A stretch of DNA of 64,000 nucleotides from Leuctra nigra (lineage: Eukaryota > Arthropoda > Insecta > Plecoptera > Leuctridae): positions 155,882-219,881 of the forward strand of contig CAKOGZ010000076.1 in NCBI GenBank assembly GCA_934045905.1, in the 5' to 3' direction. This document shows, one piece after another, positions 1 to 64,000 of this stretch. Position 1 is the first letter of the stretch. Every line of letters starts with the position of its first letter. The notes beneath the pieces are model-generated. The model was not told where the DNA came from. It saw only the letters and a program-made list of their open reading frames with translations, and ran no database searches. The translations under genes and the position numbers were made by a program.

Positions 1-96
1 GTAATTTAAGTCTGGCTTAAGCCTTAATGGTGGGATTAACTTTTTATGGCTTGGAAAATACTGGTATTTATCACTCTGATAACGTAATCTTTGGGC

Positions 97-330
97 TTAT
101 TTGAACACGTCAGAGCTTAATGGGATCATGGGCTTGTGAGACAATCGTATCTATGGATTAGGATCATAGGCTTGTGAGACAATCGTATCTTGGATTAGAT
201 ACTGAGTGATAGCGGCTCAAGTGCTTGTGGAACAATGGTATCTATGGATTATAGACGATCGATCGCTGGATCATGGGCTTGTGGAACAATAGTATCTATG
301 GATTATAGCTGATCGATCGCTGGCTTTACC
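97..330. repeat. Dispersed repeat family H, four direct copies
   Basis: Four imperfect direct copies of a unit of about 50-60 bases built on GGATCATGGGCTTGTG, then ACAATCGTATC, then TATGGATTA. Related units occur in the opposite orientation near 4.9-5.04 kb and 24.18-24.28 kb. The rest of 1-668 is A/T-rich sequence, then a TATA/initiator cassette and a leader. No gene is seen in 1-668 on either strand. The repeats may be enhancer or origin elements; that is inference. Confidence 0.7.
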
Positions 331-383
331 ATCCATTGTATTGTTATCGCTGGTGTTTCCAAGTGCAAGACCCATTGTTCTCT

Positions 384-422
384 CCAAGTATATAGTACTC
401 TAGCGCAGAGATATCGTCAGTC
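384..422 (+). promoter_or_regulatory. Early-type promoter: TATATAG with TCAGT initiator
   Basis: CCAAGTATATAG is followed by CTCTAGCG and then GTCAGTC. From the first T of the TATA box (389) to the A of TCAGT (419) is 30 bases. TATA plus CAGT at this spacing is the known arrangement of baculovirus early promoters and matches the arthropod initiator. It precedes the RING gene at 669. The same cassette recurs before three related genes (near 3313, 4191 and 5076). Confidence 0.7.
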
Positions 423-668
423 TTGTCTCTCGAGCCCGACTACCTGCTAGTCTCTTGAGCATACACAGTTACCAGTGACAGTATCAGTGACCAGTGCCTA
501 CGTCAGAGCTACGTCAGAGCTACACCTGCGAGTCTTCATACTCTGCATCATCACCTTCACACTCTACCTGTTGGTTGTCCCCACACTTGAGTAGTCGGTG
601 AGTTGTTGTACCCTTCACGGGCTAGTAACATTCGATTTCCAAACCTTGTTCTTCTACCACCTGTGATC

Positions 669-2834
669 ATGATTGTGATTCACGATGGACGTATTGTCCC
701 CATTAGAGTAAACGTCACGGTCACTGTGGACCGCGTTGGACGTCATTTGATTATCAATAGCTCCCTGAATAAACGAGCCTTGTACTTTCATTCTAGTAAA
801 CCCGTCAATCGAATTACTCGATGTGGTGGTTTACCCTTTTGTGAAATTGAGATTGAGTTTGTACCCGGAGACGTTTTCTGTGTGGGTGAACATTCAATAC
901 CTAGTTCACACAGTTCCGAGTTCACTCACCGTATCAACACTAGCGATAATACTACTGCTAGGTATGGTACAGTGGGTAGATACTCTTCCTACATCATGTC
1001 AGACAGTGGACCCGTTTGTGCAAGCTGTGGCACGGGTACTCCTACAATTGGGTACGCCGTGATGAGCTGTTGTCGTTTTCCTCATTCTCCCCTCGCTGTT
1101 GCAAGACCCCATGCAGATTGTAGTGCGCTCTTGCACTCGGGACAGAGCCCCACAGAGGCTTTTATCATGAGCCCTCGTATGTTTACAGTGCAAGCTAATG
1201 AGGCTAAACCTCTATCGATTCTGAATGCTTTCTCTTGGGATGATTCGATTGATATATCTAGTGATGACGACTCGATGGATGATGAGTCTGACGATGAGGC
1301 CTTTATGCGTCGTATCGAGAGGGATGACGTTGACACGATCATCATTCCCGACGATGACGAAGAGGAGTCCGTTCCACTAGGATCAGTTTTAGACATGGAG
1401 TTGCTGGTTGAAACTATGAATGAGTTTACCACCATTAGGAACATTCGTGCTGCTATCAATAGATCAATGATACCACGTGTGGATACACCCAACAGTATCT
1501 ATACTTCTGTGTCAGAATGTGGGGTATGTTTCGAATCCAAACGGTGTTATAGCATTGCCTATTGCCCTCACTTGTTTTGCCTGGAGTGCATCTCTCGATT
1601 GGAACCCAAGTGTCCGGGTTGCCGAGCACCAGCACGCCGTGACGTGTGGACTTCATTGCGTAACCTCTATGGTGGCAGTGGAGTTATTGGGTCCCTCTCT
1701 ACAACCGTGGTGTCTAACCCTGAGCATGCTCCTGCTACAGCGATCGCTCCTCTACAAACTGCTACAGCGATCGCTACACCCCCACAAGCTGCCAGCAATG
1801 CTACGCCAACTCCACGAGACGTCACGACCCAGGCTCCAGCTCCTGCTACGCCAACTCCACGAGACGCGACGACGAGCCATGCTACAGCTACTCCGCGAGA
1901 GGTGAGCCATACGCGAGACGTCACGATGACGACCCAGGCTCTTGCTACCCCACGAGACGTCACGAGCCATGCTCCTGCTACACCTCCTACCCCTCCTGCT
2001 ACGCCAACTCCACGAGACGTCACGACATCTAGCCATGCTCCTGCTACACCACGAGACGTCACGAGCCATGCTACCCCAATTCCACCCGTTTATGAAGCCG
2101 AATACGGGGACGCTAGTTGGCGAGACCCACCTGTTTTGAGACACGCATACACTCATCGACGTGTGCGAGAGGTGACAACTCGAGAGGAGACACCTATTCG
2201 GCGAGAGGTTGTTCGCCGAGAGGTGACACCTCCTCCTAATCGCCGACGTGACGTGACACCAACTCGAGAAGTGACGACACCTAATCGCCGACGTGACGTG
2301 ACACCACCTCCTAATCGCCGACGTGACGTGACACCTACGACACCTAGATCTACTGTGATTCAACGTGTCACACCTAGGTCCGATAGGGACCGTAGACCAG
2401 CTCGTGTACCTACACCAACACCAAGCCAAGCTCCTGTCCCAACACCAAGCGGAACTCCTGTGTATTTATTCGTACCAACACCAAACCCAGCTCCAACACC
2501 AAGCCCAGCTCGTCCCACACCAAGCCCAGCTCCTATGCGACCGAGTAGTCGTCATGTGAGTTTCTCTACAGCTCAACATACCCCTGGACAGGTACGTCAC
2601 ACTGACGAACTACATACAACCGAGGCTCAACGAAGGAGGATGCTACGACGAAGTAACGCTGTTCCCTATAATCCATACAACGCCCGTAACATGGTTAATG
2701 CGATGATACGAGCACCCGGGATGTCAACCGAAGGACACCCAGCCGAGTGTCATTGCGAACCCTGTCTGATTAATCGCCTCCGAGTTGCACATCGCGAGTT
2801 GCAAGAAACGATCGTGGCCAGAACGAGACGATGA
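669..2834 (+). CDS. RING-finger protein with Pro/Thr-rich repeat tail
   Basis: 721 residues. The first ATG of the frame is at 669; the frame opens earlier with TTG, but alignment with the paralogue at 5410 supports 669. Residues 1-170 form a Cys-containing domain shared with that paralogue (RITRCGGLPFC; CGTGTPTIGYAV). An acidic stretch follows, then a segment shared with the gene at 3434 (DMELLVE.MNEFTT, SMIPRVDTP). A C3HC4 RING (CGVC, CPHLFCLEC, CPGC) lies at about 282-320. The rest is low-complexity: repeated RDVT units at about 380-560, then PTPS/PAPTPSP runs, then a short C-terminal part with a Cys pair. RING domains usually act as E3 ubiquitin ligases, so a role in host-protein turnover is inferred. 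An AATAAA lies at 2963. RING identity is firm; partners are unknown. Confidence 0.85.
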   Translation: MIVIHDGRIVPIRVNVTVTVDRVGRHLIINSSLNKRALYFHSSKPVNRITRCGGLPFCEIEIEFVPGDVFCVGEHSIPSSHSSEFTHRINTSDNTTARYGTVGRYSSYIMSDSGPVCASCGTGTPTIGYAVMSCCRFPHSPLAVARPHADCSALLHSGQSPTEAFIMSPRMFTVQANEAKPLSILNAFSWDDSIDISSDDDSMDDESDDEAFMRRIERDDVDTIIIPDDDEEESVPLGSVLDMELLVETMNEFTTIRNIRAAINRSMIPRVDTPNSIYTSVSECGVCFESKRCYSIAYCPHLFCLECISRLEPKCPGCRAPARRDVWTSLRNLYGGSGVIGSLSTTVVSNPEHAPATAIAPLQTATAIATPPQAASNATPTPRDVTTQAPAPATPTPRDATTSHATATPREVSHTRDVTMTTQALATPRDVTSHAPATPPTPPATPTPRDVTTSSHAPATPRDVTSHATPIPPVYEAEYGDASWRDPPVLRHAYTHRRVREVTTREETPIRREVVRREVTPPPNRRRDVTPTREVTTPNRRRDVTPPPNRRRDVTPTTPRSTVIQRVTPRSDRDRRPARVPTPTPSQAPVPTPSGTPVYLFVPTPNPAPTPSPARPTPSPAPMRPSSRHVSFSTAQHTPGQVRHTDELHTTEAQRRRMLRRSNAVPYNPYNARNMVNAMIRAPGMSTEGHPAECHCEPCLINRLRVAHRELQETIVARTRR
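1795..2345 (+). repeat. Coding tandem repeat with GACGTCACG core
   Basis: Imperfect tandem units of about 40 bases (ATGCTCCTGCTAC followed by CCACGAGACGTCACGA) encode repeated PRDVT. The GACGTCA core is the same word that fills intergenic arrays elsewhere. Related units reappear in the short paralogues at 3434 and 4315. Confidence 0.75.
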
Positions 2835-3433
2835 GAGAATACCCTATTGTAACTTACTATGTACTATTGCTATATAACTTACTATTGTAACTTAACTTAC
2901 TGTCTACTTGCTATATAACTTGCTGTATATAAATTCATGTGGTGTATGGATGATGTATAAATAATAAACCTATTAAACCTATTACATATACCTTGTTATG
3001 ACGCTTTACCCCATGCTAGAATATTTTCCTAGTCTCCCAATCCACATACAAATCACAAGTCCTTAGAGACAACCAATAGCGTACGTCATTAGAGACAGTA
3101 CGTCACATTAACAGAGTCAGTCTATAGCTTACACTATGTTACTAGACGAGTCAAGACGTCATTAGAGACTGTACGTCACATTAACCACGTTACTTAGATG
3201 ACGTGTAGCTTAGGACAGTCAATGGGATGTAACAATCATCTGGTAAATCCAGACCCACAAACATGATCCGATACGGATAACTATAAAAGCTATTTCCAAG
3301 TGTTAGACCAAGTATATAGACCTCTAGCGTAGTGCTATCATCAGTCGTGGCTCGACACAGAGTTTGTCTTTGCCGAGTACCTGCAGAGCTATACCTGTGA
3401 GTCTTCGAGTCTGTACCTGAGCTACAACGAGTC
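2835..3433. other. Intergenic region with poly(A) signals and promoter cassette
   Basis: No gene seen. It holds the AATAAA of the RING gene (2963-2968), repeated phrases (ACGTCATTAGAGAC, GTACGTCACATTAACC) that recur in the next intergenic region and near 33.2 kb, and a promoter with TATATAG at 3313 and TCAGT at 3341 (30 bases from T to A). Confidence 0.7.
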
Positions 3434-3934
3434 ATGAACTTTGTGCGTCGCCTGCTCGGAGCTGAAGCTGTCGCGAATCACTCAACTGATGCCAGTATAC
3501 ACAGTGGCGAGAAGATCGATGACTCAATAGGATCACTTGTAGACATGGAGTTGCTCGTTGAAAATATGAACGAGTTTACCACTGTTGATAACATCCGTGC
3601 TGTTATACTTAAATCTATGATACCACGTGTGGATACACCCGCTACACGAGAGGTTACTCGAGACGTCACGACATCAAACGTGGTGTGTGCTCCTGCTACA
3701 CGAGAGGTTACTCCACGAGACGTCACGACATCCTATAAATATTTTGTGTGGATGAAGCCATACATCACTCCATTCAGGCGTAGCAGGAGCATGCCGCGAG
3801 ACGTCACAGTCGATGACGATGACGATGATGAGGACGGGCCCGGTACTTGGACAGACACGTATGGAGAGGTACACGAGATGGTCACGCAAAGCGAGCTGAG
3901 ACGATGGATGAAGCTGATGAGAAACGATGATTAA
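3434..3934 (+). CDS. Short paralogue of the RING protein, RING absent
   Basis: 166 residues beginning MNFVRR. Residues about 35-70 match the pre-RING segment of the gene at 669 (LVDMELLVENMNEFTT, SMIPRVDTP), but at the point where the RING would begin the sequence jumps straight to repeated ATREVT/RDVTT units. An acidic run (DDDDDDED) and a short C-terminal module (DTYGEVHEMV, ELRRWMKLMRND) follow; that module is shared with the gene at 4315. There is no zinc-binding motif left, so ligase activity is not expected. It has its own TATA/TCAGT cassette and an AATAAA at 3980. It is likely a deletion derivative of the RING gene that is still expressed. Function unknown; a dominant-negative or decoy role is only speculation. 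Confidence 0.65.
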   Translation: MNFVRRLLGAEAVANHSTDASIHSGEKIDDSIGSLVDMELLVENMNEFTTVDNIRAVILKSMIPRVDTPATREVTRDVTTSNVVCAPATREVTPRDVTTSYKYFVWMKPYITPFRRSRSMPRDVTVDDDDDDEDGPGTWTDTYGEVHEMVTQSELRRWMKLMRNDD

Positions 3935-4314
3935 CTTACTGTGTACTATTGCTATATAATGTGGTGTATGGATTGTGTAAATAAACCTATTACATATACC
4001 CTTGTGTTCTGACTACCCAATCCATCATACAAATCATACTTTGGATCCTGCTACGTTACGCAGAGTGTATAGCTTACGTTACTAGAGATGACATCTGATC
4101 AGAAGGGTACGTCATTAGAGACTGTACGACGTCACATTAACCGTATCGGATCAATCGTATACCAGCCATTGTTTCAAGTGTGAGACCAAGTATATAGCCC
4201 TCTAGCGTACACAGAGTTTTACCAGTGCCGAGTATCAAGAGTGAACCTGCGAGTCTCTCGAGTCAATACCAGTGACGAGTATCAGTACCTACGTCAGAGC
4301 TACACCTGCGAGTC
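3935..4314. other. Intergenic region duplicating the preceding one
   Basis: No gene seen. It repeats the order of 2835-3433 in shortened form: a poly(A) signal, GTACGTCATTAGAGAC-type phrases, then CCAAGTATATAG (TATA at 4191) and CTCTAGCG. The initiator is ACCAGT at 4221 and is a few bases further from the TATA box than in the sister copies. This indicates that gene and control region were duplicated together. Confidence 0.65.
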
Positions 4315-4539
4315 ATGAACTTTGTGCGTCGTATTGTCGCGATGGTGTTTACTCCTGCTACACGAGAGGTTACTCCGCTAGACGCGATTGTATCTAGCGA
4401 TGCTCCTGCTACGCCAACTCCACGATACGTCACACCTCCCATAGACATCCCAACTTATAGAGACACATACGGAGTGGTACACCCGATGGTCACGAGAACC
4501 GAGATGAGACGATGGATGAGGATGATGAGAAACGATTAA
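4315..4539 (+). CDS. Minimal paralogue of the RING family
   Basis: 74 residues, beginning MNFVRR as in the gene at 3434 and ending with the same C-terminal module (DTYGVVHPMV, EMRRWMRMMRND). Only a short stretch with ATREVT and ATPTPR units remains between them, so the DMELLVE segment, the acidic run and the RING are all missing. The reading frame, promoter cassette and AATAAA signals (4574, 4581) are intact, which argues that it is or was recently expressed. It is the smallest member of a graded series and may be a decaying copy. Function unknown. Confidence 0.5.
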   Translation: MNFVRRIVAMVFTPATREVTPLDAIVSSDAPATPTPRYVTPPIDIPTYRDTYGVVHPMVTRTEMRRWMRMMRND

Positions 4540-5409
4540 CTTACTGTGTACTATTGCTATATAATGTATGGAAAATAAAGAATAAACCTATTACATATAC
4601 CCTTGTGTTCTGAATACCCAATCATACTTTGGATCCGCACCGTTACTGACGCAGAGTGTATAGCTTAGCCCTGCTAACGTTACGGATGACGTGTGGGTGA
4701 CACAACTGTAATCCTATGTAATGTCGCTAAGCCGATAACGAACATCGGTAAACCCACACGATAACGTTGGTCGCTAAGCCGGTAAACCCATACGATTACG
4801 AAGCTTATGTTTGATCGAGTGGTTTATTATCGAGTGGTAGAGAACAATAGTTAGGTAAACCCATACGATTACGCCGATCCGATACGGATGATCGATGAGT
4901 TTATAATCCAAGATACGATTGTTCCCACAAGCCTATGATCCGATACGGGAAGTAATCAATCAGCCTATGATCCGATAGAAGTGATCGATCAGTCATAATC
5001 CATAGATACGATTGTTCTCTACACAAGCCTATGATCCCTGGGGTTTCCAAAGTGTGAGCATTGTTCTCTCCAAGTATATAGACATCTAGCGCGGAGGTAT
5101 CGTCAGTCTTGTCTTGAACTTGCACGTCAGTCAGTCAGTGTCTGAACTTGCACGTCAGTCAGTCAGTGTCTCAGAGTTGTTCACAGTTGTGAAAAGTTTC
5201 ACGTCACGTCTATCAGTTGTCAAGTTTACTGTGGTCCATGGTGGTTAGGTCACTTCTTCAAGTCAGTCCTCTAGCTACGTCATTTTTACTGTGGTCGGTT
5301 ACCTTCTTGGTTATCTTACCTCTAACGTCACTTCTAGTAGCCATTCGCTATACTCGCACGTCACGTCTATCCTTTATCCTTTGGTGCTATACTCTACTCG
5401 TTCTGAGCT
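4540..5409. repeat. Intergenic region with inverted H-family repeats and promoter
   Basis: No gene seen. Between about 4840 and 5040 are copies of the H repeat in the opposite orientation to those at 97-330 (CACAAGCCTATGATCCGATA, GATACGATTGTTC). A TATA/initiator cassette follows (TATATAG at 5076, TCAGT at 5104; T-to-A distance 30 bases), then short direct repeats (ACTTGCACGTCAGTCAGTCAG, twice) that could lie in the leader of the gene at 5410. Confidence 0.65.
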
Positions 5410-6357
5410 ATGCATCTAACTCTCGAGGGACGTATTTGGGTGCCGATTAAGTTGGATGTTCCGTTCACTGTCAAACAACGCTCGGGTCGTTATTCGATTG
5501 TGAATGACGACTTGGAGAAAACAGCTTTGTACTTTTACTGTGATAAACCTATCACACGTATCACTAGATGTGGCGGTTTACCCTTTTGTGTGATTGAGAT
5601 TGAGTTGTGTATGGGAGACACATTCTGTGTGGCGACAGAGTATCATCAAAGTGTTAGACCTGGTGTCAATACGAGTGATGGTACTCCAGTTACCGATCCT
5701 AGTACCGTGGGACAGTATTCTTCATACCTCATGTCAGACACGGGTCCTATTTGTTCAACGTGTGGAACAGGTACTCCTACCATTGGGTACGCTGTAGTGA
5801 GTTGTTGTGCCAATCCTACTTCTCCTGGAGCTGTTGTAAAAGCCGATCCAAATTGTAAAGCCTACTCGATTTGGGGAGAGAGTAACAATTACCCGGGTAA
5901 ATTTCACGAGTCGTTGGCTGTCGATGAGTGTAAACCTCGTTCATCGGTGATCACACCGATGAGTTCTGAGACTGATACCGAGTCTGAGACCGATTCCGAT
6001 ACGGATTCTGGTGACGAGCACGTGGTGGCCAAGTGTGACGCGGCAGCCGAATTGGTTTGGAAAGAAGTTCTGGGACAGTTCCCTTCAACATCCCAGTTGG
6101 CGGACCTGCTTGACGTACCTGAATCTATATACGAAATCATCAACACTCTACCCGAGGCGCCAACTTGGACTCCAACTGCACGTCAGCGTCGTCAAGAGAG
6201 GAGGGAACGTATTCGAGCTGTTCGACCATTTGTGAGGAGGTCTACAAATCCGTCAGGATACAACTCTTTATTGGATTGTGTTCGTAATGGTATAGAAGAC
6301 GTATACGGTGAAGATAGTGAACAAATGTTGCACTGGGACGAGACTCAAAGAGAATAA
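5410..6357 (+). CDS. Paralogue of the RING protein N-terminal domain
   Basis: 315 residues. Residues 1-150 align with the N-terminal domain of the RING protein at 669, with the shared landmarks RITRCGGLPFC, SSYLMSDTGPIC and CGTGTPTIGYAVVSCC. Conserved Cys pairs suggest a small metal- or disulfide-stabilised fold of unknown type. The middle is acidic (SETDTESETDSDTDSGDEH), and the C-terminal part is an Arg-rich helix-forming region (ARQRRQERRERIR). There is no RING and no RDVT repeat. It has its own TATA/TCAGT promoter. The Cys-rich domain may be the substrate-binding part of the family, with this member acting without the ligase; that is inference. Confidence 0.75.
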   Translation: MHLTLEGRIWVPIKLDVPFTVKQRSGRYSIVNDDLEKTALYFYCDKPITRITRCGGLPFCVIEIELCMGDTFCVATEYHQSVRPGVNTSDGTPVTDPSTVGQYSSYLMSDTGPICSTCGTGTPTIGYAVVSCCANPTSPGAVVKADPNCKAYSIWGESNNYPGKFHESLAVDECKPRSSVITPMSSETDTESETDSDTDSGDEHVVAKCDAAAELVWKEVLGQFPSTSQLADLLDVPESIYEIINTLPEAPTWTPTARQRRQERRERIRAVRPFVRRSTNPSGYNSLLDCVRNGIEDVYGEDSEQMLHWDETQRE

Positions 6358-6397
6358 TTTGTATAACTTCACATTACTCACAATACATGTATAAATT

Positions 6398-6605
6398 GTT
6401 TAATCTTGGAACTATGGATGTATAATTCGGTGTTGGAACTATAATAAACCTGTTAAGTAAAAAACATTGTATTCCTCATTCTATTCCCTCACCTCACTAC
6501 CCAACATACTAATTGACTTGTATTGTTTTAATCTTGGAACTATGGATGTATAATGGTGTTGGAACTATGGAATAATCCTCACTACCCAACATACTAATTG
6601 ACTTG
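6398..6605. repeat. Tandem duplication downstream of the 5410 gene
   Basis: The phrase TAATCTTGGAACTATGGATG and the following GGTGTTGGAACTAT, then CCTCACTACCCAACATACTAATTGACTTG, each occur twice. The first copy carries AATAAA (about 6440) for the gene at 5410. The second copy abuts the tRNA gene. Confidence 0.65.
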
Positions 6606-6616
6606 TCATACGTGAC

Positions 6617-6687
6617 GGTTCTGTGGTGTAGTGGTATCACGTCTGCTTTACACGCAGAAGGTCTCCGGTTCGATCCCGGGCAGAACC
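6617..6687 (+). tRNA. tRNA-Val (anticodon UAC)
   Basis: A complete 71-base cloverleaf. The acceptor GGTTCTG pairs with CAGAACC. The anticodon stem TCTGC/GCAGA encloses a 7-base loop with TAC at positions 34-36, U33 and A37. The T arm TCCGG/CCGGG encloses TTCGATC. Pol III box A (TGGTGTAGTGG) and box B (GGTTCGATCCC) are present, and a TTTTT terminator follows at about 6693. No CCA is encoded, as in eukaryotic tRNA genes, and the body is very close to animal tRNA-Val. It was probably captured from a host and could be transcribed by host Pol III. Confidence 0.92.
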
Positions 6688-6715
6688 TGCCCCTTTTTAT
6701 TTTACCAGTATGGAC

Positions 6716-6840
6716 GTCACTGTACACGAGGGTTAGTTCTCACATCGTACACGAGGGCGTCACTGTACACGTGGGTTAGTACGGTCTCACATTGTACAGG
6801 TTTAGTACGGACGTCACTGTCGACGGGGGTAGTAGTGTAG
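6716..6840. repeat. Repeat family I (ACGTCACTGT ... CGAGGGTTAGT)
   Basis: Four imperfect units of about 30 bases, built from GGACGTCACTGTACACGAGGG and TTAGTACGGTCTCACAT. Related units occur near 43.0-43.2 kb, 61.07-61.21 kb (twice) and 62.55 kb, upstream of p74 and the 266-residue gene. Confidence 0.65.
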
Positions 6841-6936
6841 TGTATTAGTGTATCAGGTACCTACGTAGTAGGTGTACCTAAGGTATACCTAATGAGTCCG
6901 GTCGGGGCAGGTCGACCCTGGTCTACCTACCTACCA

Positions 6937-7363
6937 GTCACGTGACCGAGTCTATACATCTCGCTCTCAATGCTGGACTCCCCCGGACCGGGTAGGGGGG
7001 TAAATCAGACCGAGATCGAGTCGTATACATCTCCTAAGATTCGCTCTATGAGTCATAGATCCATCTACGTCACAGCATACAGCGAGCGAGTCGACTGTAC
7101 CATCCGCTCTATGTCATACATCCATACGTCACATCATACAGCGAGCGAGTCGACTGTACCATCCGCTCTATGTCATACATCCATACGTCACATCATACAG
7201 CGAGCGAGTCGACTGTACCATCCGCTCTATGTCATACATCCATCTACGTCACATAATACATTCACCGAGTCGCTAGCCTCCCTAGCCTTCTAGTGCTAGG
7301 TGTCACGTGACCGAGTCTATACATCTCTCTCTCAGTGTTGGACTCCCCCGGACCGGGTAGGGG
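6937..7363. repeat. Pair of long direct repeats around a GC-rich palindrome
   Basis: A segment of about 60 bases beginning GTCACGTGACCGAGTCTATA and ending in CCCCCGGACCGGGTAGGGG occurs at 6937-6999 and again at 7302-7363. Each carries a CACGTG palindrome and a GC-rich inverted repeat that could form a hairpin. They bracket the 59-base tandem repeats. A role as an hr/origin element is inference. Confidence 0.7.
7074..7258. repeat. Three tandem copies of a 59-base unit
   Basis: AGCGAGCGAGTCGACTGTAC recurs at 7081, 7140 and 7199, an exact 59-base period. Each unit includes CATACATCCATACGTCACAT with the ACGTCA core. The segment is open in one frame for 107 codons, but this is a by-product of the period. 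Closely similar sequence encodes the stalk of the LRR protein near 13.25-13.52 kb. Confidence 0.85.
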
Positions 7364-8050
7364 TCTGAGACCGAGTCAAGTTCGCTCCGATTGAATTCAG
7401 TTGAACACTTAGCACATTGGCAGACCTACGAGATTCGCTCTATGAGTCATACATCCATATGCTCGTAGCTCTACGTCACACAGCGAGCGAGTCGACTGTA
7501 CCGTTTACGTCACACCATACATCTCTCTAGTCGTCCTACCCTTCCAAGTGCTGGACTCCGCTCAGATTCATACGTCAGAGGTCCATACGTCATAGGGTGG
7601 GAGTGTATGAGATTCAGACCCTACAGACCGAGTCTTGATCGCTCTGCTCGAGCTTGATCGCTTAAACTCATCCTGTCTCAAATTCCTGACCATCTCCAAA
7701 GCTCAGATTCAGATACTACTACGTCAGAGGTCCATACGTCAGACGGAGATTCAGACCCTACGTCAGAGGTACAATAGCTCGAGTGTGTAGACCATACGTC
7801 AGACTACGTCAGAGGTCCATACGTCAGAGGGGTGGGAGTTATGAGATTCAGACACCTAAGATCGCTCTAGCTCGAGCTTGATCGAGCTCAGATTCGATAC
7901 ACTACGTCAGAGCTACTAGGTAATACCCAAACACGTGACGAGATACAGGAGCGTCATCAGAGTCGGATTATACCCGAGTAACAATCATATCTTCAGAGTC
8001 GGATTATACCCGAGAACAATCGTATCTTCAGAGTGGGATTATACCCGCAA
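7364..8050. repeat. hr-like repeat zone, family A
   Basis: No gene seen. It has many copies of TACGTCAGAGG, CATACGTCAGA, GCTCGAGCTTGATCG and GAGATTCAGAC in mixed order. The stretch at about 7768-7803 (CTACGTCAGAGGTACAATAG, then CTCGAG, then GTGTAGACCATACGTCAGA) matches 39.38-39.44 kb, and its reverse complement matches 45.31-45.37 kb. Near 7970-8045 are three copies of CAGAGTCGGATTATACCCG just upstream of the promoter at 8052. Confidence 0.75.
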
Positions 8051-8051
8051 G

Positions 8052-8084
8052 TATATAACGCACCTACGTGAGATATCCGTTAGT
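8052..8084 (+). promoter_or_regulatory. Early-type promoter of the HAD-like gene
   Basis: TATATAA at 8052-8058 is followed by TTAGT with its A at 8082, 30 bases from the first T of the TATA box. This is the spacing of the RING-family promoters, with C changed to T in the initiator. The leader to the ATG at 8173 is about 90 bases. Confidence 0.6.
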
Positions 8085-8172
8085 TTCCGACTGGGTATAC
8101 CTGTGAAGTTACGAGACTCTGATCCAAGGCACACATCAACCCGCATTATACAGTCTACCATCTGACACTACG

Positions 8173-9435: not shown

Positions 9436-9768
9436 ATGTTTAATATTTACAAGGTCAAAGTACAGTTACACACTGTATAAATGACAATGATGTCGCACGC
9501 ATTTAGACGGCTCGCTTATCAATGCGTTACACAGAGCGTTTAAAGGTGTGGTGTATAATATACGGTGTATGTATGGAGCCTATGTATGTATAATCCAGGT
9601 ATGGAGCCTTGTATAATAACCATGTAATAAACCAACTTACTCGACGCGTGTCTTACACTTTACCCATCTTCCAATCCCATTCCTCCTCGCAAGGTACAAC
9701 GTCATGCGCCACAACCATGGATCGTACACGTCATATGTAAGATATCCAGTCTTAACCCAACCCTCATT
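9436..9768. other. Intergenic region, no gene seen
   Basis: It contains a duplicated phrase (GTATGGAGCC, then GTATAATAA/GTATAATCC) and an AATAAA near 9626 that would end the transcript of the HAD-like gene. No convincing small gene is visible. Confidence 0.6.
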
Positions 9769-10494: not shown

Positions 10495-10693
10495 GGTCTG
10501 ATCTTTGCTCTGACGTAGGTTGCTCGTGGAAATACCCAGCGTGTGACGAGAGCCAGTTAATCGCTCGGCTTAACGCGTCAGGGAGGTGATAACATACATC
10601 GTTCGAACCTGTAAGCTCATGCATGTTTGACGTGGGATTATAGATTCCTATGTGACGTGCTGGTTTGACGTAGGATTACAAGTACTTTGCGAG

Positions 10694-54457: not shown

Positions 54458-54503
54458 TAGTACCTAATTACGTCAAAGGTACCACGTCAAAGTCGTCAGA
54501 GCA

Positions 54504-55395: not shown

Positions 55396-55701
55396 ATGGA
55401 CATGAATAGCGAGTTGTTAACATCGTTACTGGTGTACCTGTGTACTTGACAATTAATGTTGTGTAGTAATGTAACCAAATAATAAATTCTTGTTACTCAA
55501 CCCATGATCATTATTTCTCACCCGTCTACCGTTCCCTACGTCATACTGTGTGTGAAGCTACGTCATACTGTGTCGAGCTGTGGTTACGTCAGGTTGCGTT
55601 GTGTGGATGTGTTGTGTGTGGCTGTATAGGTGTGTTGAAGCTATAAACTAGCTACGTCACACACTCTATTAGCGTTACATAGACTGGAACACACCATAAG
55701 G
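55396..55701. promoter_or_regulatory. Intergenic region: poly(A) signal, repeats and TATA box
   Basis: AATAAA near 55482 ends the preceding genes. GCTACGTCATACTGTGTG-type units occur twice, and GCTATAAAC at 55641 is a TATA box about 60 bases before the ATG at 55702. No gene seen. Confidence 0.6.
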
Positions 55702-57228
55702 ATGGATCTCATCCAACGCGCGTACGATCTTCTGCGAGGAGTCAATACACAAGATGTCGCTTTACCCCTTTACCAAGAGATGTCTGATTTGTATCAACAA
55801 GTCATTGTGTCGGAGGGTGTAGCTAAATATCCCCCGTTCAACAAGATGCTCACCCTAGCTTCGTATTCAAGTTATCGAACAAAGACCACCCGCAATATTG
55901 TTGGATCTAAAATGATTGTAAAGTTCCTATCCCTGTTCGTGTTAGACCGAGTAAACGCTAAAACCAACAACAAGGTTCTTGATCTAATGAAGGAAACAAT
56001 AACGGCTTACAATCCAGATATACCTGTGGGTAGCGAGGAGTATAACAATATATGCCGTCTAGCAAACGTTAAACAAGACCTAAGTTATAGAAACCCATAC
56101 TTGCTAGCCCTCCAAACTATGGGTGGTGATCTATTTACGAGCATGGCAGTGAGCGTTGTACAGACTCGGTTCCACGAGCCCATTGCCAACTTGAACCGTG
56201 TCTTACAACCGACACCCGTCATCCAAACACCTGTCTACACCGGTGGTCTATCGTCGTTACGTGTTGGGTCAGAACCTAAACCTACGTCAGAGGATCGTAC
56301 ATCAGAGCTTCGTACAGAGGTACCTACGTCAGAGGATCGTACGTCAGAGCTTCGTACGTCAGAGGTACCTACGTCAGAGGATCGTACGTCAGAGCTTCGC
56401 ACGTCAGAGGTACCTACGTCAGAGTATACCGATTCTATGGAGACCGACAAACTAGAGTCTTGTGAGAACTTGAGTACTGAGCCTCTCCCAGAGAGTGGGA
56501 AGTTCGAGAGCGATGAAACCCTCGCGCGAGCCGACAGTGTGGACCCTACGTCGCATTCAGGCGTCACCACCTCTACGTCACAATCAAGCGTCACCACAGT
56601 GTTTTCAAACCTCGCTACGATATACGAAGAGACACAGGAGGATACGTCATCACCCACACTTGGAGACGAGACATCTCCAAGAGATCGGTTTGCTGCAGGG
56701 AGTCGAAATCTTTTCACACAGAGTGTCACACACGATCACTCGTATGCAACACAGAACGAGGGATACGTCACAGAGCCTAGATACGTCACAGAGACTGAAC
56801 CCAGGGAACCTACAACACCCCGTCCCAGTGTATTTGCTACTCGGTCCATGTCCGAGCTCTTGGACGAGTTTAACCAAGATGAACTCGACAAAGACCTAGC
56901 GACACGTATGTTGGAAACATACACGTCACATTCGGATGAGGATCGAGACCTAGCGAAACGTTTGTTGGAAACGTACACGTCGGATGAGGATCGAGACCTA
57001 GCTACGTCACAATATGACGATGATCGAGAAGCGAAGTACACGTCACAATCGGATCCTAACCAACAGTGCTCCATGCAAGATATTGCACCCAACTCACAAG
57101 GAACTGAGGAGGACGATGACGATGACGATGATGACGAGTATGAGTATGAGACGGGAAGTGAGAGTGAGGATGATAGCGTGGCTCAACTGAAACGTAATAT
57201 AGAAGACAAATATAATAGGCTTGTATAG
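55702..57228 (+). CDS. Protein with folded N-terminus and hr-derived repeat tail
   Basis: 508 residues. Residues 1-185 look like a folded helical domain (YPPFNKMLTLASYSSYRTKT; IVKFLSLFVLDRV). From about 190 it is low-complexity: TSEDRTSELRTSEVP repeats (about 193-240), a Ser/Thr/Glu stretch, then repeats LATRMLETYTSHSDEDRDLA (about 395-445), and an acidic end (DDDDDDDEYEYE). The TSEDRTSEL tract is encoded by CTACGTCAGAGGATCGTACG-type DNA that is nearly the intergenic family A module (GTCAGAGCTTCGTATCG). The repeats are therefore probably captured intergenic DNA. Function unknown. Confidence 0.75.
   Translation: MDLIQRAYDLLRGVNTQDVALPLYQEMSDLYQQVIVSEGVAKYPPFNKMLTLASYSSYRTKTTRNIVGSKMIVKFLSLFVLDRVNAKTNNKVLDLMKETITAYNPDIPVGSEEYNNICRLANVKQDLSYRNPYLLALQTMGGDLFTSMAVSVVQTRFHEPIANLNRVLQPTPVIQTPVYTGGLSSLRVGSEPKPTSEDRTSELRTEVPTSEDRTSELRTSEVPTSEDRTSELRTSEVPTSEYTDSMETDKLESCENLSTEPLPESGKFESDETLARADSVDPTSHSGVTTSTSQSSVTTVFSNLATIYEETQEDTSSPTLGDETSPRDRFAAGSRNLFTQSVTHDHSYATQNEGYVTEPRYVTETEPREPTTPRPSVFATRSMSELLDEFNQDELDKDLATRMLETYTSHSDEDRDLAKRLLETYTSDEDRDLATSQYDDDREAKYTSQSDPNQQCSMQDIAPNSQGTEEDDDDDDDDEYEYETGSESEDDSVAQLKRNIEDKYNRLV
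56278..56425 (+). repeat. Coding copy of family A ACGTCAGAG repeats
   Basis: CCTACGTCAGAGGATCGTAC, GTCAGAGCTTCGTAC and GTCAGAGGTAC alternate three times. The same phrases form the non-coding arrays at 39.4 and 45.4 kb. Here they encode TSED/TSEL/TSEV. Confidence 0.8.
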
Positions 57229-57359
57229 TTTATTATCAACCGTCATACATTATCATGTCATATACATTTGTTACATCTCTGCATACCATAACATGTAGTA
57301 ACCTGTGTACTAACTCATGAGCGAGTTGCTTTTACTGTGATTAAATACGTTATACAACA

Positions 57360-57923
57360 CTATGTAAAGGTGAACATTTTTGAAACCCAACGAGAGCTTT
57401 CACCATCCTGAATCCCTATAGCGAGCGATTGAAGTTGTACGTCACAATACACCTTTGCGTATTCGAGGCTCATGTCTAGATCATCAAGCGTGAAATACCG
57501 CGTACCGAGTATTTCAATTGCCAACAATGTACGATGTTTAGGAAACGCAAGTCTCATGCGGTCAATGAGGATCTTCACACCCGTCTGATAGTATTCAGGT
57601 AGCTCTTTCCGTATACATTTGCTGAGAATGAGCGCCGAGAGAGAAGTCGAATGTTCCATGTTCCAGTTTTCCATCAGGGTAGTCCAATCGGGAAAGTTAT
57701 ACATCGCCGTGTATTGGATCACGTGGTCCGTAGCTAGATTCGATAGATGTGCGTGGATGTTTGCGAGTACAGTTTTATAGTTCGCTTTCTTCTTCCCACA
57801 AGGTGCCGAGATCCACCCCGCGTTGATATTCTCGATCGTCATCGCCGATACTTGGTCCGGGAGTAGGTGGGCGATACTCGGTTCGGCTAACGCTATTCGA
57901 AATAATTCTTGGGATAGCGCCAT
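57360..57923 (-). CDS. Unknown 187-residue protein overlapping the recombinase gene
   Basis: 187 residues. A helical protein (LAEPSIAHLLPDQVSAMTIE; HLSNLATDHVIQYTAMYNF; LIDRMRLAFPKHRTLLAIEI) without motif, signal or span. Its first 49 codons lie inside the recombinase gene on the same strand in another frame (149 bases). The overlapped region is the disordered end of the recombinase, so both can be real. Not recognised. Confidence 0.7.
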   Translation of the reverse strand: MALSQELFRIALAEPSIAHLLPDQVSAMTIENINAGWISAPCGKKKANYKTVLANIHAHLSNLATDHVIQYTAMYNFPDWTTLMENWNMEHSTSLSALILSKCIRKELPEYYQTGVKILIDRMRLAFPKHRTLLAIEILGTRYFTLDDLDMSLEYAKVYCDVQLQSLAIGIQDGESSRWVSKMFTFT

Positions 57924-59154
57924 ATGGAGCTACCGTGTCATACGGTCGAAGGCGAACACCAACCGCGTCAGTTCGATCACCATCAGACACTCGAAGGCGA
58001 TCACCTACACCATCAGACACTCGAAGGCGAACACCAACCGCGTCAGTTCGACCACCTACACCATCAGACGTTCGAAGGCGATCACCTACACCATCAGACA
58101 CTCGAAGGCGATCACCTTCAGACGCTCGAAGAGGTTCCCGATTGCGATTGAGATCGAAACGTACAGGTTCTATTGTGTCACCACTAGTCCATCTTGGTAT
58201 CGGTAAATCGGCTAACCGTTGAACAGTGTCAATACCCGGTCTACGTATGTAACGTAGCGTAGTCTTGAGATCTTTATGATTGAGTACAAATTGAGAATCG
58301 GTCGACGTTTGATACTGTTGCACGTTGGCGGCAATGTTACGTCGGATAGAGTGAAATCCAGCCCCAGTGTTGCGAACAAACGGATGAGGTAGCGCTTTGA
58401 GCACCGTGTCTATACGGTGTGTGGTGACGAGGGACTCTAGCTGGTTATTTATCATACATTGTCTCACCTGAGATAACACGTGTAAACCCGACGCGCCACC
58501 CAGGTACTTGAATTCGACGAGGCGATTACCTTTCACTTTGATAGTGGGGAGTACGTTGGGCGACTGAATCACCGCTGTGAGTAGGGGTATGGTGACGGTT
58601 TCGGCTTCGCTCACTCGTAAACCCGTCACTTGGATAATAGCAATGACGCAACATGTTCGTAAATAGTTTGGTCTACGTTTACGTCGTCCGTCTGTAATTT
58701 CGTACATGACAAACGAGAACAGCTGGTCTAGGTCCACTTGCGATATGAGACCGGCTGTGGGGAGAGCGATTTTCAGATACCTTTCCATGTTGTACGGGAT
58801 CTTGAAACCGGTAAACCCGTCGCGTTGCATATGTTCCACAATCTGTCTGACGTACGAGTAGGCATACATTTCACCCTTTGTATTTCGACATGCTCGAAAG
58901 AACCGATCGTTGATTTCAGGTGTGACGGGACCGTCCTCATAGCCGATATTACGGAGGATACGTTGATATGTTTTTTTACGACTCTTTGTCGTTTGGCGTG
59001 ACTTTTCAGTTTGATGTATTGAAGCTTTGAATAGGGTTCTACGCGTACCTCCACCACTCGTACTCGCGACACCAGCGTCGACGCTATTGGCACCACTCGT
59101 ACTCGCGACACTAGAGTCAACGTTATTGGGACTCCTGCCCAGGTTCCGATCCAT
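57775..59154 (-). CDS. vlf-1: Tyrosine recombinase, VLF-1-like
   Basis: 459 residues from the ATG at 59154; only a TTG precedes it. The catalytic set is complete: R180 (TGLRVSEAE), K208 (KVKGN), H268-x-x-R271 (HSIR), H293 (LNHKD) and Y302 (TLRYI). Nudiviruses and baculoviruses use VLF-1 of this family in very late transcription and in capsid/genome maturation; nudiviruses also have a second integrase, which cannot be excluded here. The N-terminus has a SVASTSGA/GVASTSGG repeat. The C-terminal 140 residues are repetitive (RLRVSDGVGDRLR units) and partly overlap the next gene. TTAAG immediately precedes the ATG. It overlaps the p74 end by 32 bases. Confidence 0.8.
   Translation of the reverse strand: MDRNLGRSPNNVDSSVASTSGANSVDAGVASTSGGGTRRTLFKASIHQTEKSRQTTKSRKKTYQRILRNIGYEDGPVTPEINDRFFRACRNTKGEMYAYSYVRQIVEHMQRDGFTGFKIPYNMERYLKIALPTAGLISQVDLDQLFSFVMYEITDGRRKRRPNYLRTCCVIAIIQVTGLRVSEAETVTIPLLTAVIQSPNVLPTIKVKGNRLVEFKYLGGASGLHVLSQVRQCMINNQLESLVTTHRIDTVLKALPHPFVRNTGAGFHSIRRNIAANVQQYQTSTDSQFVLNHKDLKTTLRYIRRPGIDTVQRLADLPIPRWTSGDTIEPVRFDLNRNREPLRASEGDRLRVSDGVGDRLRTSDGVGGRTDAVGVRLRVSDGVGDRLRVSDGDRTDAVGVRLRPYDTVAPYGAIPRIISNSVSRTEYRPPTPGPSIGDDDREYQRGVDLGTLWEEESEL
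57940..58140 (-). repeat. Coding repeats at the end of the recombinase gene
   Basis: Units of about 30 bases (CACTCGAAGGCGATCACCTA + CACCATCAGA, plus strand) alternate with AACACCAACCGCGTCAGTTC blocks. They encode the RLRVSDGVGD array. These lack the TACGTCA word, unlike most coding repeats here. Confidence 0.75.
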
Positions 59155-61045
59155 ACTTAACAATCATCGATAAATATAGGAGTCCACCACCGGAGAGGGC
59201 GATGACCGCCATTCCTATGAGCGTCAGAGGTAATATGTTTACCCATGAGAGAAATAGTGTAAAGCACACGAGAATTAATAATCCCATCAACAACGTCACT
59301 CTATGACGCACTATCGGGGTGATGGTCTCGGCAACAGTTTGGGGTTGAAAGAGATTCACCTGGACCGCAAGAAAGTCGCTGTAATACTCGTCACTCTCCA
59401 TACAGACCACACCGATTTCGTCCTCTGTGAAATAATCATGGAATGCGAGTCGTGAGCCCTCAGAGTTGACGGTGCGACTCGAGAGATACTCGTACAGATA
59501 GTCAAACGTTAAACCTATCTCGAATGTGGTTTCTTCTGACGTAGGTGTATCCGTCAGTACCCCCAACATACCCGGTGTTAGCTCTAGAACCTGGCTAAAC
59601 GTCGTATTGTATTCTGTACGGTAAAAGAGACCCATAGCTCTCAAGGATTCTGGATCAAACTCTTCACCGAACCCAAGGGGATCCCAAAACATGGATATTA
59701 GATCCATAATCGTTCCCACAATGGCTATCATCCCAATCACTGACGCGACTTGAGACGCTATTTTAGCCAGGGTGATCAACACCCTGCTCACTATTCTAAC
59801 CGCGAGACGTTGGAACGTCACCTTGAGCGATTGTCTAAAGACGAGCGACAAGAGTTTTTTACTCACACCCATTCGAATCTTCTCCAATAGTTTTTTGGTG
59901 AGCATGGGAATCGCTTCTTTAGCAAGTTTTTTCATAAGCTCAGAGAACGCGTCCATGGCCATGTCGATGCCGTAGTCCAATAAAAGGTCGGACAACACTT
60001 CAGTCGAGCATAGCGCTTTGAAAAACTCGAGCACCTTCTCGGGGGTGATATCGATCTCGGATAGGTCGGGTAGGTCGAATACAGGTTGTGGCGCATTACG
60101 GTGACGTGTAACGATGCTCGGTTCTGTGACGTATAGGTCTCCGTCACGCGAATAGAGAAACCGATCGGTGCGAGGTTGTCTCGGCTCCAGTACCCCACCC
60201 TCTCGCATCGGCCCAAAGACGAGTGAGTGTGACGTATCCACTTGAACGTCCATGTCATAGTCAATGGGGAGTTTGAGCGGTCCCTTCCTAGAGCGCCATT
60301 CATCCAAATCCAACAGGTGGTCGGTTGTTGGGACGGCTGGTGGGATCTTGTATGGCTTTTTACCCATTAGAACGTCGGTGAGGCGATCGAGTATCGCATA
60401 CATATACGAGCCAATAATTGTCGACGCAATTAAACTAAAAACGCTTTGTCGACATCTCATACCGTCAAAGGTTTTGCTATAGTAATCACAGTACTCTTTA
60501 TTGAATCGCATACCATACCCACCGCCTTCATACACGAGGGTAAACGGTGCGACGTTGGTGAGGCCAGGTTTAGCCTTCTCTGAACGTAATTTAGGTATCG
60601 CGGAAAACGCTAGTATAGACGAGTCCATAAACATGCACTTGCCACCAAAGGGGCGCACGTGAAAAGATTGCACGGATGGTTTGTCGGGATCATCTAAAGC
60701 CCCCATATTGAAACACGAGGGACCACAACTTGTCAACGTAATGTCGGGACCAGGGTTCCATACCTCGGGTTTTTTACTCGGAGTACACATGTCACCTGTA
60801 TTCCTAAACGGTAAACAATCTACCATACTACAACCTTCCTCGGTGAAAACCCACTCGACCACCAACGCTCTGTTAGCAAAGTCTGGCTCGTAGAGGTAAT
60901 CGTTTTGCGTCGCTCTCGATATACGTAATTCTGTACGGGTGTAGATGCCATTCTTTCGACCATACCGATTAATGTACACGAGTTGGAGACGAGACATTGT
61001 GTATCTCAGAGCCGAGTCGAAATCGATACCCGTAAACTCGGCCAT
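59123..61045 (-). CDS. p74: P74 (PIF-0), per os infectivity factor
   Basis: 640 residues, the normal P74 size. The Cys-containing N-terminal half has family landmarks (CSMVDCLPFRN, LTSCGPSCFN, HVRPFGGKCMF + MDSS, RFNKEYCDYY). Helical middle parts follow (LKVTFQRLAVRIVSRVLITL), and C-terminal spans (LLMGLLILVCFTLFLSW and LIGMAVIALSGGGLLYL) anchor it. P74 is a virion-envelope protein essential for oral infection; it is activated by proteolysis in relatives. ATAAG, a late-promoter motif, lies nine bases before the ATG. The start region is duplicated upstream (see the repeat at 61022). One of the surest assignments in the window. Confidence 0.88.
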   Translation of the reverse strand: MAEFTGIDFDSALRYTMSRLQLVYINRYGRKNGIYTRTELRISRATQNDYLYEPDFANRALVVEWVFTEEGCSMVDCLPFRNTGDMCTPSKKPEVWNPGPDITLTSCGPSCFNMGALDDPDKPSVQSFHVRPFGGKCMFMDSSILAFSAIPKLRSEKAKPGLTNVAPFTLVYEGGGYGMRFNKEYCDYYSKTFDGMRCRQSVFSLIASTIIGSYMYAILDRLTDVLMGKKPYKIPPAVPTTDHLLDLDEWRSRKGPLKLPIDYDMDVQVDTSHSLVFGPMREGGVLEPRQPRTDRFLYSRDGDLYVTEPSIVTRHRNAPQPVFDLPDLSEIDITPEKVLEFFKALCSTEVLSDLLLDYGIDMAMDAFSELMKKLAKEAIPMLTKKLLEKIRMGVSKKLLSLVFRQSLKVTFQRLAVRIVSRVLITLAKIASQVASVIGMIAIVGTIMDLISMFWDPLGFGEEFDPESLRAMGLFYRTEYNTTFSQVLELTPGMLGVLTDTPTSEETTFEIGLTFDYLYEYLSSRTVNSEGSRLAFHDYFTEDEIGVVCMESDEYYSDFLAVQVNLFQPQTVAETITPIVRHRVTLLMGLLILVCFTLFLSWVNILPLTLIGMAVIALSGGGLLYLSMIVKYGSEPGQESQ

Positions 61046-62533: not shown

Positions 62534-62581
62534 CGTGTTGGTTGTTGTCTACGTCACTGTCTCTCCACGAGGGTTATCTGT

Positions 62582-63286
62582 TTAATATAAACACTTACTA
62601 GTGCCCGTCTCGTGAGGTCCAATCTCGTATAGGACACCGTTACACTCGATTACGTCATCTTGTAGTATGGAAAACATGACGGGTTCCTTGGGTATGCATT
62701 CGATACCGGCAAAGAGACTCGTACTGAACCGTGACAACTCGTCCGCTTGGATCGAGCGCAACACCTGATCATACTGGTTAGACCCCAGGGACCAGTATTT
62801 AATACCCCGGTCTGTGATGGCAGCGATGAAAACGAGAAACGTGTACAGAGAGACACTTTCCGCGAGTTGTGGTATTATGTCATTCGTAATATTGACAACG
62901 TCAAGGATATTCTCGTTTGTAAACACTTTCACGGGAAGCGCGCGGTTATTGGTACGACGTAACATTCCCTTGCTATAGTCCAAAGGTTGACTACATTTCA
63001 AGGGAAAACCACCGCGCATTGTCGATTTCGATAAAACTTCTAGATTCATATGTATCACTTGCCCGTCACTTGAATGATATTCGTGGGTGGGTTCGAGCAT
63101 GATCCAGTTACCAATGAGGGGATGAGGAATTTGTTTTGGTATTAGAAACGTTGGTAGATCGTTTGGATTACCAATATTATACCGAAGTAAAGCGGGCCTC
63201 AGTTTAGCCCATTTGTCGGGGAAGATGTGAGTGTTGGTGTGCCAAAACTCGTTCTTGTTAGGCGCACTAGGGGTATTCACGTTCAT
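62582..63286 (-). CDS. Unknown protein with RRTNNRALPVKV motif
   Basis: 234 residues from the ATG at 63286; the frame has only a TTG upstream. A folded protein with hydrophobic helix VSLYTFLVFIAAITDRGIKYW and a beta-like C-terminus (FSILQDDVIECNGVLYEIG). The RRTNNRALPVKVFTNEN element resembles RRPTNNRSLPVQVYNE of the membrane protein at 33306. No signal peptide. Possibly a virion protein; family unknown. Confidence 0.7.
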   Translation of the reverse strand: MNVNTPSAPNKNEFWHTNTHIFPDKWAKLRPALLRYNIGNPNDLPTFLIPKQIPHPLIGNWIMLEPTHEYHSSDGQVIHMNLEVLSKSTMRGGFPLKCSQPLDYSKGMLRRTNNRALPVKVFTNENILDVVNITNDIIPQLAESVSLYTFLVFIAAITDRGIKYWSLGSNQYDQVLRSIQADELSRFSTSLFAGIECIPKEPVMFSILQDDVIECNGVLYEIGPHETGTSKCLY

Positions 63287-63339
63287 GTTTGGTACAAGTC
63301 TCACACTTGGGATATTCAAATCACGCGCGTTCCTTATGA

Positions 63340-63493
63340 CCTGTGTCTGACGTAGTACCTTGTGTAATCCCAGTATTGGCTGTAGCTCTGACGTAGGTAC
63401 TACGAACCGTCTGACGTACTGCTCTGACGTAGGTACTACGAACCGTCTGACGTACTGTAGCTCTGACGTAGGTACTCCTCTGACGTAGGTACC
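63340..63493. repeat. CTCTGACGTAGGTACTAC array
   Basis: Seven TGACGTA words in about 150 bases, as GCTCTGACGTAGGTACTACG + AACC and GTCTGACGTACTG units. The same unit then continues into the end of the next gene (two copies near 63600-63627), where it encodes PTSELPTSEQ. Confidence 0.85.
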
Positions 63494-64000
63494 CTAGGAA
63501 GCAAATCGTTTCGCTTGGACCATAGTATCGTTAAATTCCCCTCTACGTTTTAATCCTATCGGCGTATCCCGCAGTTGGCGTGTTGCTGCACCGTACTGCT
63601 CTGACGTAGGTAGCTCTGACGTAGGTACTGTAGGTTTGAACTGTGTATCGTCGTAGATCCGACTCGCCCGGGAGTGAGAGTTGGCGTATAACGGTGGGAA
63701 TGGGGTATGTTGAATATGGTCCATGTTGAACTCTTGATAGCCCCCGGGTTGGGAAACTAGATATACGGTGATGTCATCGATTTCGGGGTTCTTCGCATTG
63801 GGCTTGGTGTTTATAATCACACCGTTCGTAGTGCCCCTGTCGTCACAGTTTGTCGTGAGAACGTTTGGATTGATGATGAGAGATTCACGAAAATATTTCT
63901 CCTTCATTGGCTCTCCGTTACTTCCCTCCATATCCATTACAGCACACAATGGATACCCCGAGCTTTGTTGAGCATATTGATACGTGTCGTCGTCAAATAT
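63494..64000 (-). CDS. Unknown protein, 5' end beyond the window
   Basis: At least 168 residues. The frame is open without a stop to the right edge at 64000, so the true start may lie outside; the first ATG inside is at 63937. The visible part looks folded at first (ESLIINPNVLTTNCDDRGTT; DDITVYLVSQPGGYQEFN) and ends with a polar tail that contains PTSELPTSEQ, the coding form of the TACGTCAGAG repeat. The last residues are basic (IGLKRRGEFNDTMVQAKRF). Not recognised. Confidence 0.65.
   Translation of the reverse strand: MFDDDTYQYAQQSSGYPLCAVMDMEGSNGEPMKEKYFRESLIINPNVLTTNCDDRGTTNGVIINTKPNAKNPEIDDITVYLVSQPGGYQEFNMDHIQHTPFPPLYANSHSRASRIYDDTQFKPTVPTSELPTSEQYGAATRQLRDTPIGLKRRGEFNDTMVQAKRFAS

Follow-up and report, generated by a model that had tools for sequence, protein, structure and literature searches.

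A directional TGACGT word in same-strand arrays of a nudivirus-like genome from the Leuctra nigra assembly: putative upstream activating sequences

Why does one six-base word recur hundreds of times in a stretch of virus-like DNA? The question is raised by 64,000 nucleotides of the Leuctra nigra assembly GCA_934045905.1 (contig CAKOGZ010000076.1, positions 155,882 to 219,881, forward strand), hereafter the window, which carries nudivirus-like core genes. TGACGT or its complement ACGTCA was found 346 times in the window, 171 times forward and 175 times reverse, corresponding to 5.4 words per kb. In 100 dinucleotide shuffles, the mean was 66.95 (standard deviation 8.98; about 67 ± 9) and the largest count was 87. 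When expectations were taken from a second-order Markov model, TGACGT again ranked first among 6-mers in excess (73.7 expected, 346 observed). The original prediction, which described a window-wide word system, had named comparisons of both kinds beforehand, for the full genome, and in the window the excess held in both. We propose that same-strand arrays of an asymmetric site, TSTGACGTAG, would serve as upstream activating sequences for many genes of this virus, a reading that we hold with about even confidence.

An exact and asymmetric word

Non-coding DNA contained 166 words, compared with 17.5 ± 4.1 after dinucleotide shuffling. The gene model comprised 47 of 70 ATG open reading frames (ORFs) chosen by eye, with overlapping and antisense ORFs and those at 6970-7293 and 36412-36714 left out; the array listing and a first ORF count used 48 ORFs, including 6970-7293. 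Two of the 18 one-letter neighbours of TGACGT exceeded z 2 in non-coding DNA, namely TGACGC (14 vs. 6.2, z 3.1) and TCACGT (27 vs. 16.6, z 2.6). The shorter core TGACG occurred 194 times there, including the 166 TGACGT, against 42.6 expected. Inside ORFs, TGACGA (85 vs. 48.5) and TGACGC (44 vs. 22.0) were enriched too, TGACGA being without excess in the gaps. Window-wide, TAAG was present at half of expectation (152 vs. 320).

The preferred flanks were T then C or G before the core and A then G after it, giving the asymmetric TSTGACGTAG. AG followed TGACGT in 107 of 346 cases (31%), compared with 5.9% modelled, while CA followed it in 22 (6.4%), compared with 6.5% modelled. The palindromic cAMP response element (CRE) TGACGTCA was found at 11 sites against 2.25 by shuffling, as the TGACGT count alone predicts, and was rejected as the favoured form because it is at chance given its TGACGT half. 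TGASTCA (TGACTCA/TGAGTCA), the TPA response element (TRE) or AP-1 site, was depleted, with 3 sites in the window against 12.8 expected, so the window does not join the baculovirus homologous regions (hrs) on their TRE/AP-1 sites. Unfolded protein response element (UPRE) and PAR-bZIP sites were likewise rejected as the main form.

A search for hr-type imperfect palindromes (14-nt arms, at least 12 paired, loop 0-6) returned none in the window, compared with a mean of 1.3 and a maximum of 4 in 20 shuffles. Longer-spaced inverted pairs of at least 20 nt numbered seven, at two places, with 85-350 nt between the arms. Long inverted repeats with the word in their arms lie at 11992-12488 and 45310-45499, two of the sites at which array direction flips. 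The word had been described as CRE-like and the system as an hr element, on the model of baculovirus hrs with CRE-like and TRE-like sites; these counts do not support a CRE/TRE-type hr. The expectation of one short exact core, rather than one conserved long palindrome, spread over the window with differing spacers was borne out.

Same-strand arrays upstream of genes

Two or more words were present in 24 of the 31 gaps of at least 150 bp between model ORFs, confirming the claimed density in most larger intergenic regions, and three clusters of 7, 7 and 13 words that had been named were located exactly (starts given below). The arrays are as follows, with the strand of the words:

46835-47068, forward: 13 words, often at 15-bp pitch (starts 46835-47063), upstream of the lef-5-like ORF 45960-46763 (reverse)
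31375-31585, forward: 9 words, divergent gap between lef-4 (29873-31273, reverse; LEF-4 by Pfam) and ORF 31612-32562 (forward)
28465-28588, forward: 7 words (starts 28465-28583), divergent gap 28382-28591
34987-35152, forward: 6 words, AGGTTACT spacer, divergent gap 34961-35165
63348-63486, forward: 7 words (starts 63348-63481), upstream of ORF 62582-63286 (reverse)
45004-45485, both strands: 11 words (9 forward, then 2 reverse) upstream of ORF 44554-44997 (reverse); 45004-45330 rebuilt between genome copies
7473-7909, reverse: 11 words upstream of ORF 8173-9435 (forward)
4109-5363, reverse: 11 words (10 reverse, 1 forward) upstream of ORF 5410-6357 (forward)
19364-19508, reverse: 5 words, divergent gap 19262-19573
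21895-22002, forward: 4 words, divergent gap 21864-22102
55538-55659, reverse: 4 words upstream of ORF 55702-57228 (forward), TATA-like box at -60
11717-12475, both strands: 8 words, 4 forward then 4 reverse, 31-nt perfect inverted repeat around the flip
3083-3204, reverse: 5 words (4 reverse, 1 forward) upstream of ORF 3434-3934 (forward)

Successive non-palindromic words within 60 bp shared the same strand in 141 of 152 cases. The commonest pitch up to 45 bp was 15 bp: 24 pairs had it, spread over 11 places and involving 13 different spacers. Each array has its own spacer, as had been predicted, while the order in which the spacers had been assigned to loci was wrong: both copies of ACTCCAAAGCG lie in the 28.5-kb array, six of seven copies of GTACCCTG in the 46.9-kb array, and AGGTTACT mainly in the 35.0-kb array (five of eight same-strand copies), with no AGGTTACT found in the 63.3-kb or 46.9-kb arrays. 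A 104-aa frame (46895-47209, reverse) with Tyr-Val-Thr repeats is open through most of the 13-word array and is probably incidental.

Word density depended on the type of gap. With palindromic words left out, 3'-3' gaps contained 13 words in 3266 bp (4.0 per kb; 10 convergent gaps), same-direction gaps 108 in 9418 bp (11.5 per kb; 21 gaps) and 5'-5' gaps 32 in 1666 bp (19.2 per kb; 7 divergent gaps). Compared per gap, with one 10-bp gap dropped, convergent gaps differed from the others (9 vs. 28; P = 4e-4). The words thus form arrays of the CRE half-site, with TGACG enriched in promoter-bearing gaps. Density was highest at about 101-200 bp before the ATG, in a count that assigned each divergent gap to both of its genes. 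For ORFs 44554-44997, 22103-22813 and 12589-13968, a TATA-like box separates the start from most of the array. Arrays precede the lef-5-like ORF (13 words) and lef-4 (9 words), as would suit upstream activating sequences.

Genome copies, constraint and the competing explanations

The window forms the final 64,000 bases (155882-219881) of a 219,881-bp contig, C71, one of 144 contigs in the 536-Mb assembly. Searched across the whole genome, the p74 protein gave three full-length open copies, on C71 only, at 24,248, 119,943 and 215,007, unequally spaced by 95,695 and 95,064 bp; C71 therefore appears to hold about 2.3 head-to-tail copies of a nudivirus-like unit of about 95 kb. Its first 500 bases are identical to the window from 34,766 onward, and its end, which is the window end, lies inside an ORF that continues in the first genome copy, so both ends are viral and no host flank is seen. 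C71 may represent a circular viral genome whose assembly ran on beyond its starting point, or a provirus in tandem.

Core genes of nudiviruses and baculoviruses are present in the window. Pfam matches above cut-off were obtained for p74, PIF-2, PIF-3, PIF-5 (E56), LEF-4 and Ac81, and Pfam also named an IAP and a helicase-like AAA protein. In the LEF-5-like ORF, Pfam recognised a zinc ribbon of the TFIIS type and, below cut-off, LEF5_C; an integrase match below cut-off was read as VLF-1-type, and DNA polymerase B lies in the adjoining piece (L150). Judged by core-gene content, the virus is nudivirus-like, presumably a nudivirus or a member of a related family. Its G+C content, 46.6%, lies above the 25.5-42.0% given for nudiviruses in table rows of PMC6626001.

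Compared blockwise with the window (pieces L152-L155), the genome copies are identical in some blocks and in others diverge by as much as about 9% within 2 kb. Identity between the tandem units is mosaic: L156 matches window 49184-59083 at 100% identity, and the first copy matches most of that span at about 95%. The 1317-aa ORF at 48271-52224 (reverse) carries 260 substitutions between two copies, 98, 85 and 77 at codon positions 1, 2 and 3, respectively, and its second copy is still open as a 1313-aa ORF; from this pattern it is a putatively diversifying or recombinant gene. A tRNA-Val (TAC) gene at 6617-6688 (forward) was, by eye, present in the other copy despite strongly differing flanks. 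Adjoining ORFs starting at 24362/25709, 669/5410 and 8173/10752 (spans 24362-27016, 669-6357 and 8173-11702) resemble paralogous pairs by eye.

The core appears to resist change among repeats that share a spacer and, in non-coding DNA, between copies. Where repeats had 8 bases of spacer in common, the core had decayed by one letter in 3.7% of near-intact cases, compared with 21.6% for control 6-mers; the decay ratio had a block-bootstrap interval of 0.07-0.56, with 826 of 1678 word pairs coming from one 1.5-kb block at 19.5 kb. The copies were compared over the divergent stretches 4001-10000 and 38001-60000, leaving out the 1317-aa gene and counting in both directions, so that shared words are counted twice and controls overlap. 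Non-coding words were intact in 130 of 138 cases (2 lost by substitution, 6 by indel), while control 6-mers near words were intact in 2999 of 3603 (248 by substitution, 356 by indel; Fisher P = 2e-4). Most of the stretch 44,791-45,330 differs in arrangement from one copy to the other, spacers having been gained and lost, but the word counts are 8 and 7. Arrays seem to expand and to be replaced through tandem duplication, with selection apparently keeping the cores. Turnover at a near-constant site count makes the divergent copies a good case for homotypic enhancer evolution.

Because the core is exact, the site asymmetric, the arrays homotypic, the density biased by gap type and the non-coding words constrained, the words are best read as factor-binding sites upstream of genes. 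On this view a protein would bind the asymmetric site TSTGACGTAG, of which TGACGT is the core, and the same-strand arrays would act as promoter-proximal enhancers. The factor would be sequence-specific, most probably of the bZIP kind that reads the ATF/CREB half-site TGACG, and would bind several copies at once and recruit transcription. TGACG is the half-site of ATF/CREB proteins, and repeated sites of this type are known from pathogen promoters (see below), so a host or viral bZIP protein is the first candidate. No bZIP domain was present among the Pfam matches of the 48 ORFs scanned, in a scan confined to the window. Protein binding, activation, and the bZIP identity and possible host origin of the factor are what we infer about the function of the words.

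Several observations weigh against upstream activation. Gene starts are those of predicted ATG ORFs. About half of all words (184 of 346 in the 48-ORF set) lie within ORFs: the words are enriched in gaps, as had been noted, and are not confined to them. ORF words are evenly spread, lower in the first 150 bp and not near starts. Between copies they are no better conserved than controls (92 of 98 vs. 3803 of 4093 intact, P = 0.84). When cores present in either copy were counted as a union, the core had changed in 8 of 414 cases and the spacers in 48 of 2192, no difference; this count favours differences, since it includes words seen because they differ, some of which look like alignment effects, and it limits the claim of constraint. 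Among same-direction gaps, ACGTCA read in the sense of the gene in 14, the opposite held in 5 and 1 was tied (sign test P = 0.064); of the 108 words there, 83 were sense and 25 antisense, the words not being independent. Word direction relative to the gene is only a tendency. TATAWW was absent within 400 bp upstream of 10 of 24 listed ORFs, and the 170-bp gap upstream of the helicase-2-like ORF 16600-17883 has no word. Finally, a symmetric bZIP dimer binding a palindrome would need no direction; heterodimers or factors outside the bZIP class would be equally compatible with the data.

Words are in excess inside ORFs too. The 47 ORFs contained 180 words, compared with 58.2 after synonymous-codon shuffling (largest of 200 shuffles, 73), and without two repeat-rich ORFs the count was 147 vs. 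48.4, with nearly equal directions (70 vs. 77). They occur in more than one frame, Thr-Ser being written as ACGTCA in 59 of 177 cases and Val-Thr as C-GTC-AC in 35 of 119. Protein-level repeats were rejected as the sole cause by the frame contexts and the synonymous shuffle. Given this excess, the several frames and the even spread, the excess lies at the DNA level and is explained neither by a protein motif nor by promoters alone. ORFs and small frames with words include:

19826-20734, reverse: words in the repeat part of ORF 19574-21076 (18 in the ORF), read DATSEP (ACG TCA in frame)
56284-57009, reverse: words in the repeat part of ORF 55702-57228 (15 in the ORF), 15-bp and 45-bp periods
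7067-7251, reverse: four words in a 59-bp tandem repeat, small ORF 6970-7293, mostly not counted as a gene
29873-31273, reverse: lef-4 ORF, 10 words vs. 2.2 by synonymous shuffle
59123-61045, reverse: p74 ORF, 6 words vs. 0.7 by synonymous shuffle

The even ORF excess keeps a genome-wide role in replication, packaging or maintenance alive. A viral DNA-binding protein could use the word to cover or process the genome along its entire length, be it for the firing of replication origins, packaging, condensation or maintenance as an episome; arrays would then stand wherever the sequence leaves room for them. The excess over synonymous shuffling, even in lef-4 and p74, and the even occurrence along ORFs in two reading-frame contexts favour such a protein; the roughly three- to five-fold sparser convergent gaps, the lack of conservation of ORF words between copies, and the polarity of neighbouring clusters, not shared beyond chance (P = 0.28), speak against it, and we consider it somewhat unlikely, though a serious contender. 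Neutral growth of tandem repeats, in which a fast-slipping genome multiplies any seed unit and TGACGTA spread by chance, would account for the own spacer and tandem period of each array, for the repeat-length changes by which copies differ, for the many word-bearing repeats in low-complexity protein parts and for the union count, which shows no constraint. It accounts poorly for the same exact 6-mer amid unrelated spacers, the scarcity of core decay products, the conservation of non-coding words and the enrichment outside the two repeat-rich ORFs, and is unlikely. A canonical baculovirus-like hr with CRE/TRE sites, which repeats at many loci, a CRE half in TGACGT and the CRE sites reported in baculovirus hrs in the accessible text of PMC3230853 might suggest, is improbable in view of the missing hr-type palindromes, the CRE palindrome that is not favoured, the depleted TRE and the nudivirus papers, whose accessible text reports no hrs. 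Least probable is an RNA-level element, UACGUCA on the sense strand of transcripts: the sense-strand ACGTCA of most same-direction-gap words fits it, whereas directions are nearly equal in ORFs outside the repeat-rich ones, and non-palindromic words in 5'-5' gaps share one direction and are therefore antisense to one neighbour.

Reading the arrays as upstream activating sequences still leaves room for a bolder idea, which we regard as rather doubtful: a genome-wide one-word code might have replaced the hr system. Its directional six-base core would be kept exact by selection, with arrays continually rebuilt by tandem duplication at a favoured 15-bp pitch; it would be used to transcribe most genes and perhaps also in replication or maintenance, and would have spread into coding sequence where the protein tolerates it. 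Should the word be read by an ATF/CREB-type protein of the host, the programme of the virus would be coupled to a single signalling pathway of that host. In the related virus HzNV-2, one gene has its best match in an insect adenylate cyclase, according to the accessible part of its description.

Comparison with known systems

No relative was found in the collections searched. The p74 and helicase-2-like ORFs had no relatives in a set of 5.8 billion proteins, p74 had none among solved structures, and p74, PIF-2, PIF-5 and the VLF-1-type ORF had none in viral_contigs. Array patterns matched at least 120 stretches of viral_contigs with one pattern and 21 with another; among the matches listed, none exceeded the 5.4 words per kb of the window, the highest being 4.83 (L068) and 4.78 (the 1.3-kb L064). 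Five of eight 3-kb host loci (L142-L149) had more than 1.5 words per kb, and none of these five matched the window in blastn; these loci are uninformative on the host background because they were chosen by word pattern. Many words of L149 lie in a 22-bp host tandem repeat (2308-2956), and the overlapping L143 and L144 look repetitive by word spacing; the tandem repeats of these loci carry TGACGTCA or TGACGTAG words.

No literature report of TGACGT words in nudiviruses was found, most subscription journals lying outside the coverage. The accessible text of the HzNV-2, HgNV and PvNV papers states that no hrs were found and lists 6, 7 and 13 regions of direct repeats (drs), respectively. As far as that text goes, the drs resemble the window in being tandem repeats without hr palindromes and differ in that here one exact word links many arrays. 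The HzNV-1 early promoter motif ATA[GC]G[GC]TAT, which the accessible part of PMC11728702 places before 34 genes and suggests to be bound by a host factor, is likewise short and upstream of nudivirus genes but different in sequence; one of its forms, ATAGGGTAT, occurred twice in the window against 0.7 expected. Nudivirus late motifs may differ from those of baculoviruses, according to partly accessible sources, which also state that no hrs are known in nudiviruses. One exact, countable and testable word offers a direct handle on how these viruses organise transcription and replication.

Baculovirus hrs with CRE sites (accessible text of PMC3230853) share with the window repeats at several loci, a CRE-type half-site and a related virus group. 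The window differs in having no hr palindrome, a depleted TRE, same-strand arrays, and words before many genes and inside ORFs; since hr palindromes are absent and the TRE is poor, its system is not filed as an hr. Recruitment of host bZIP proteins was reportedly proposed for baculovirus hrs by Landais in 2006. The stoperators of mycobacteriophage L5 are asymmetric, exact, dispersed, repressor-bound sites that are directional relative to transcription; they differ in belonging to an unrelated virus and in being single scattered sites without tandem arrays. Repeated TGACG-type sites bound by host bZIP proteins are known from the ATF-site promoters of adenovirus, the repeats of HTLV-1 and HCMV, and the plant as-1/ocs elements. 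These systems have a handful of copies at one or few promoters, whereas the window has hundreds in 64 kb. The feature is real and strong, and it belongs to a known kind, the homotypic regulatory repeats of large DNA viruses.

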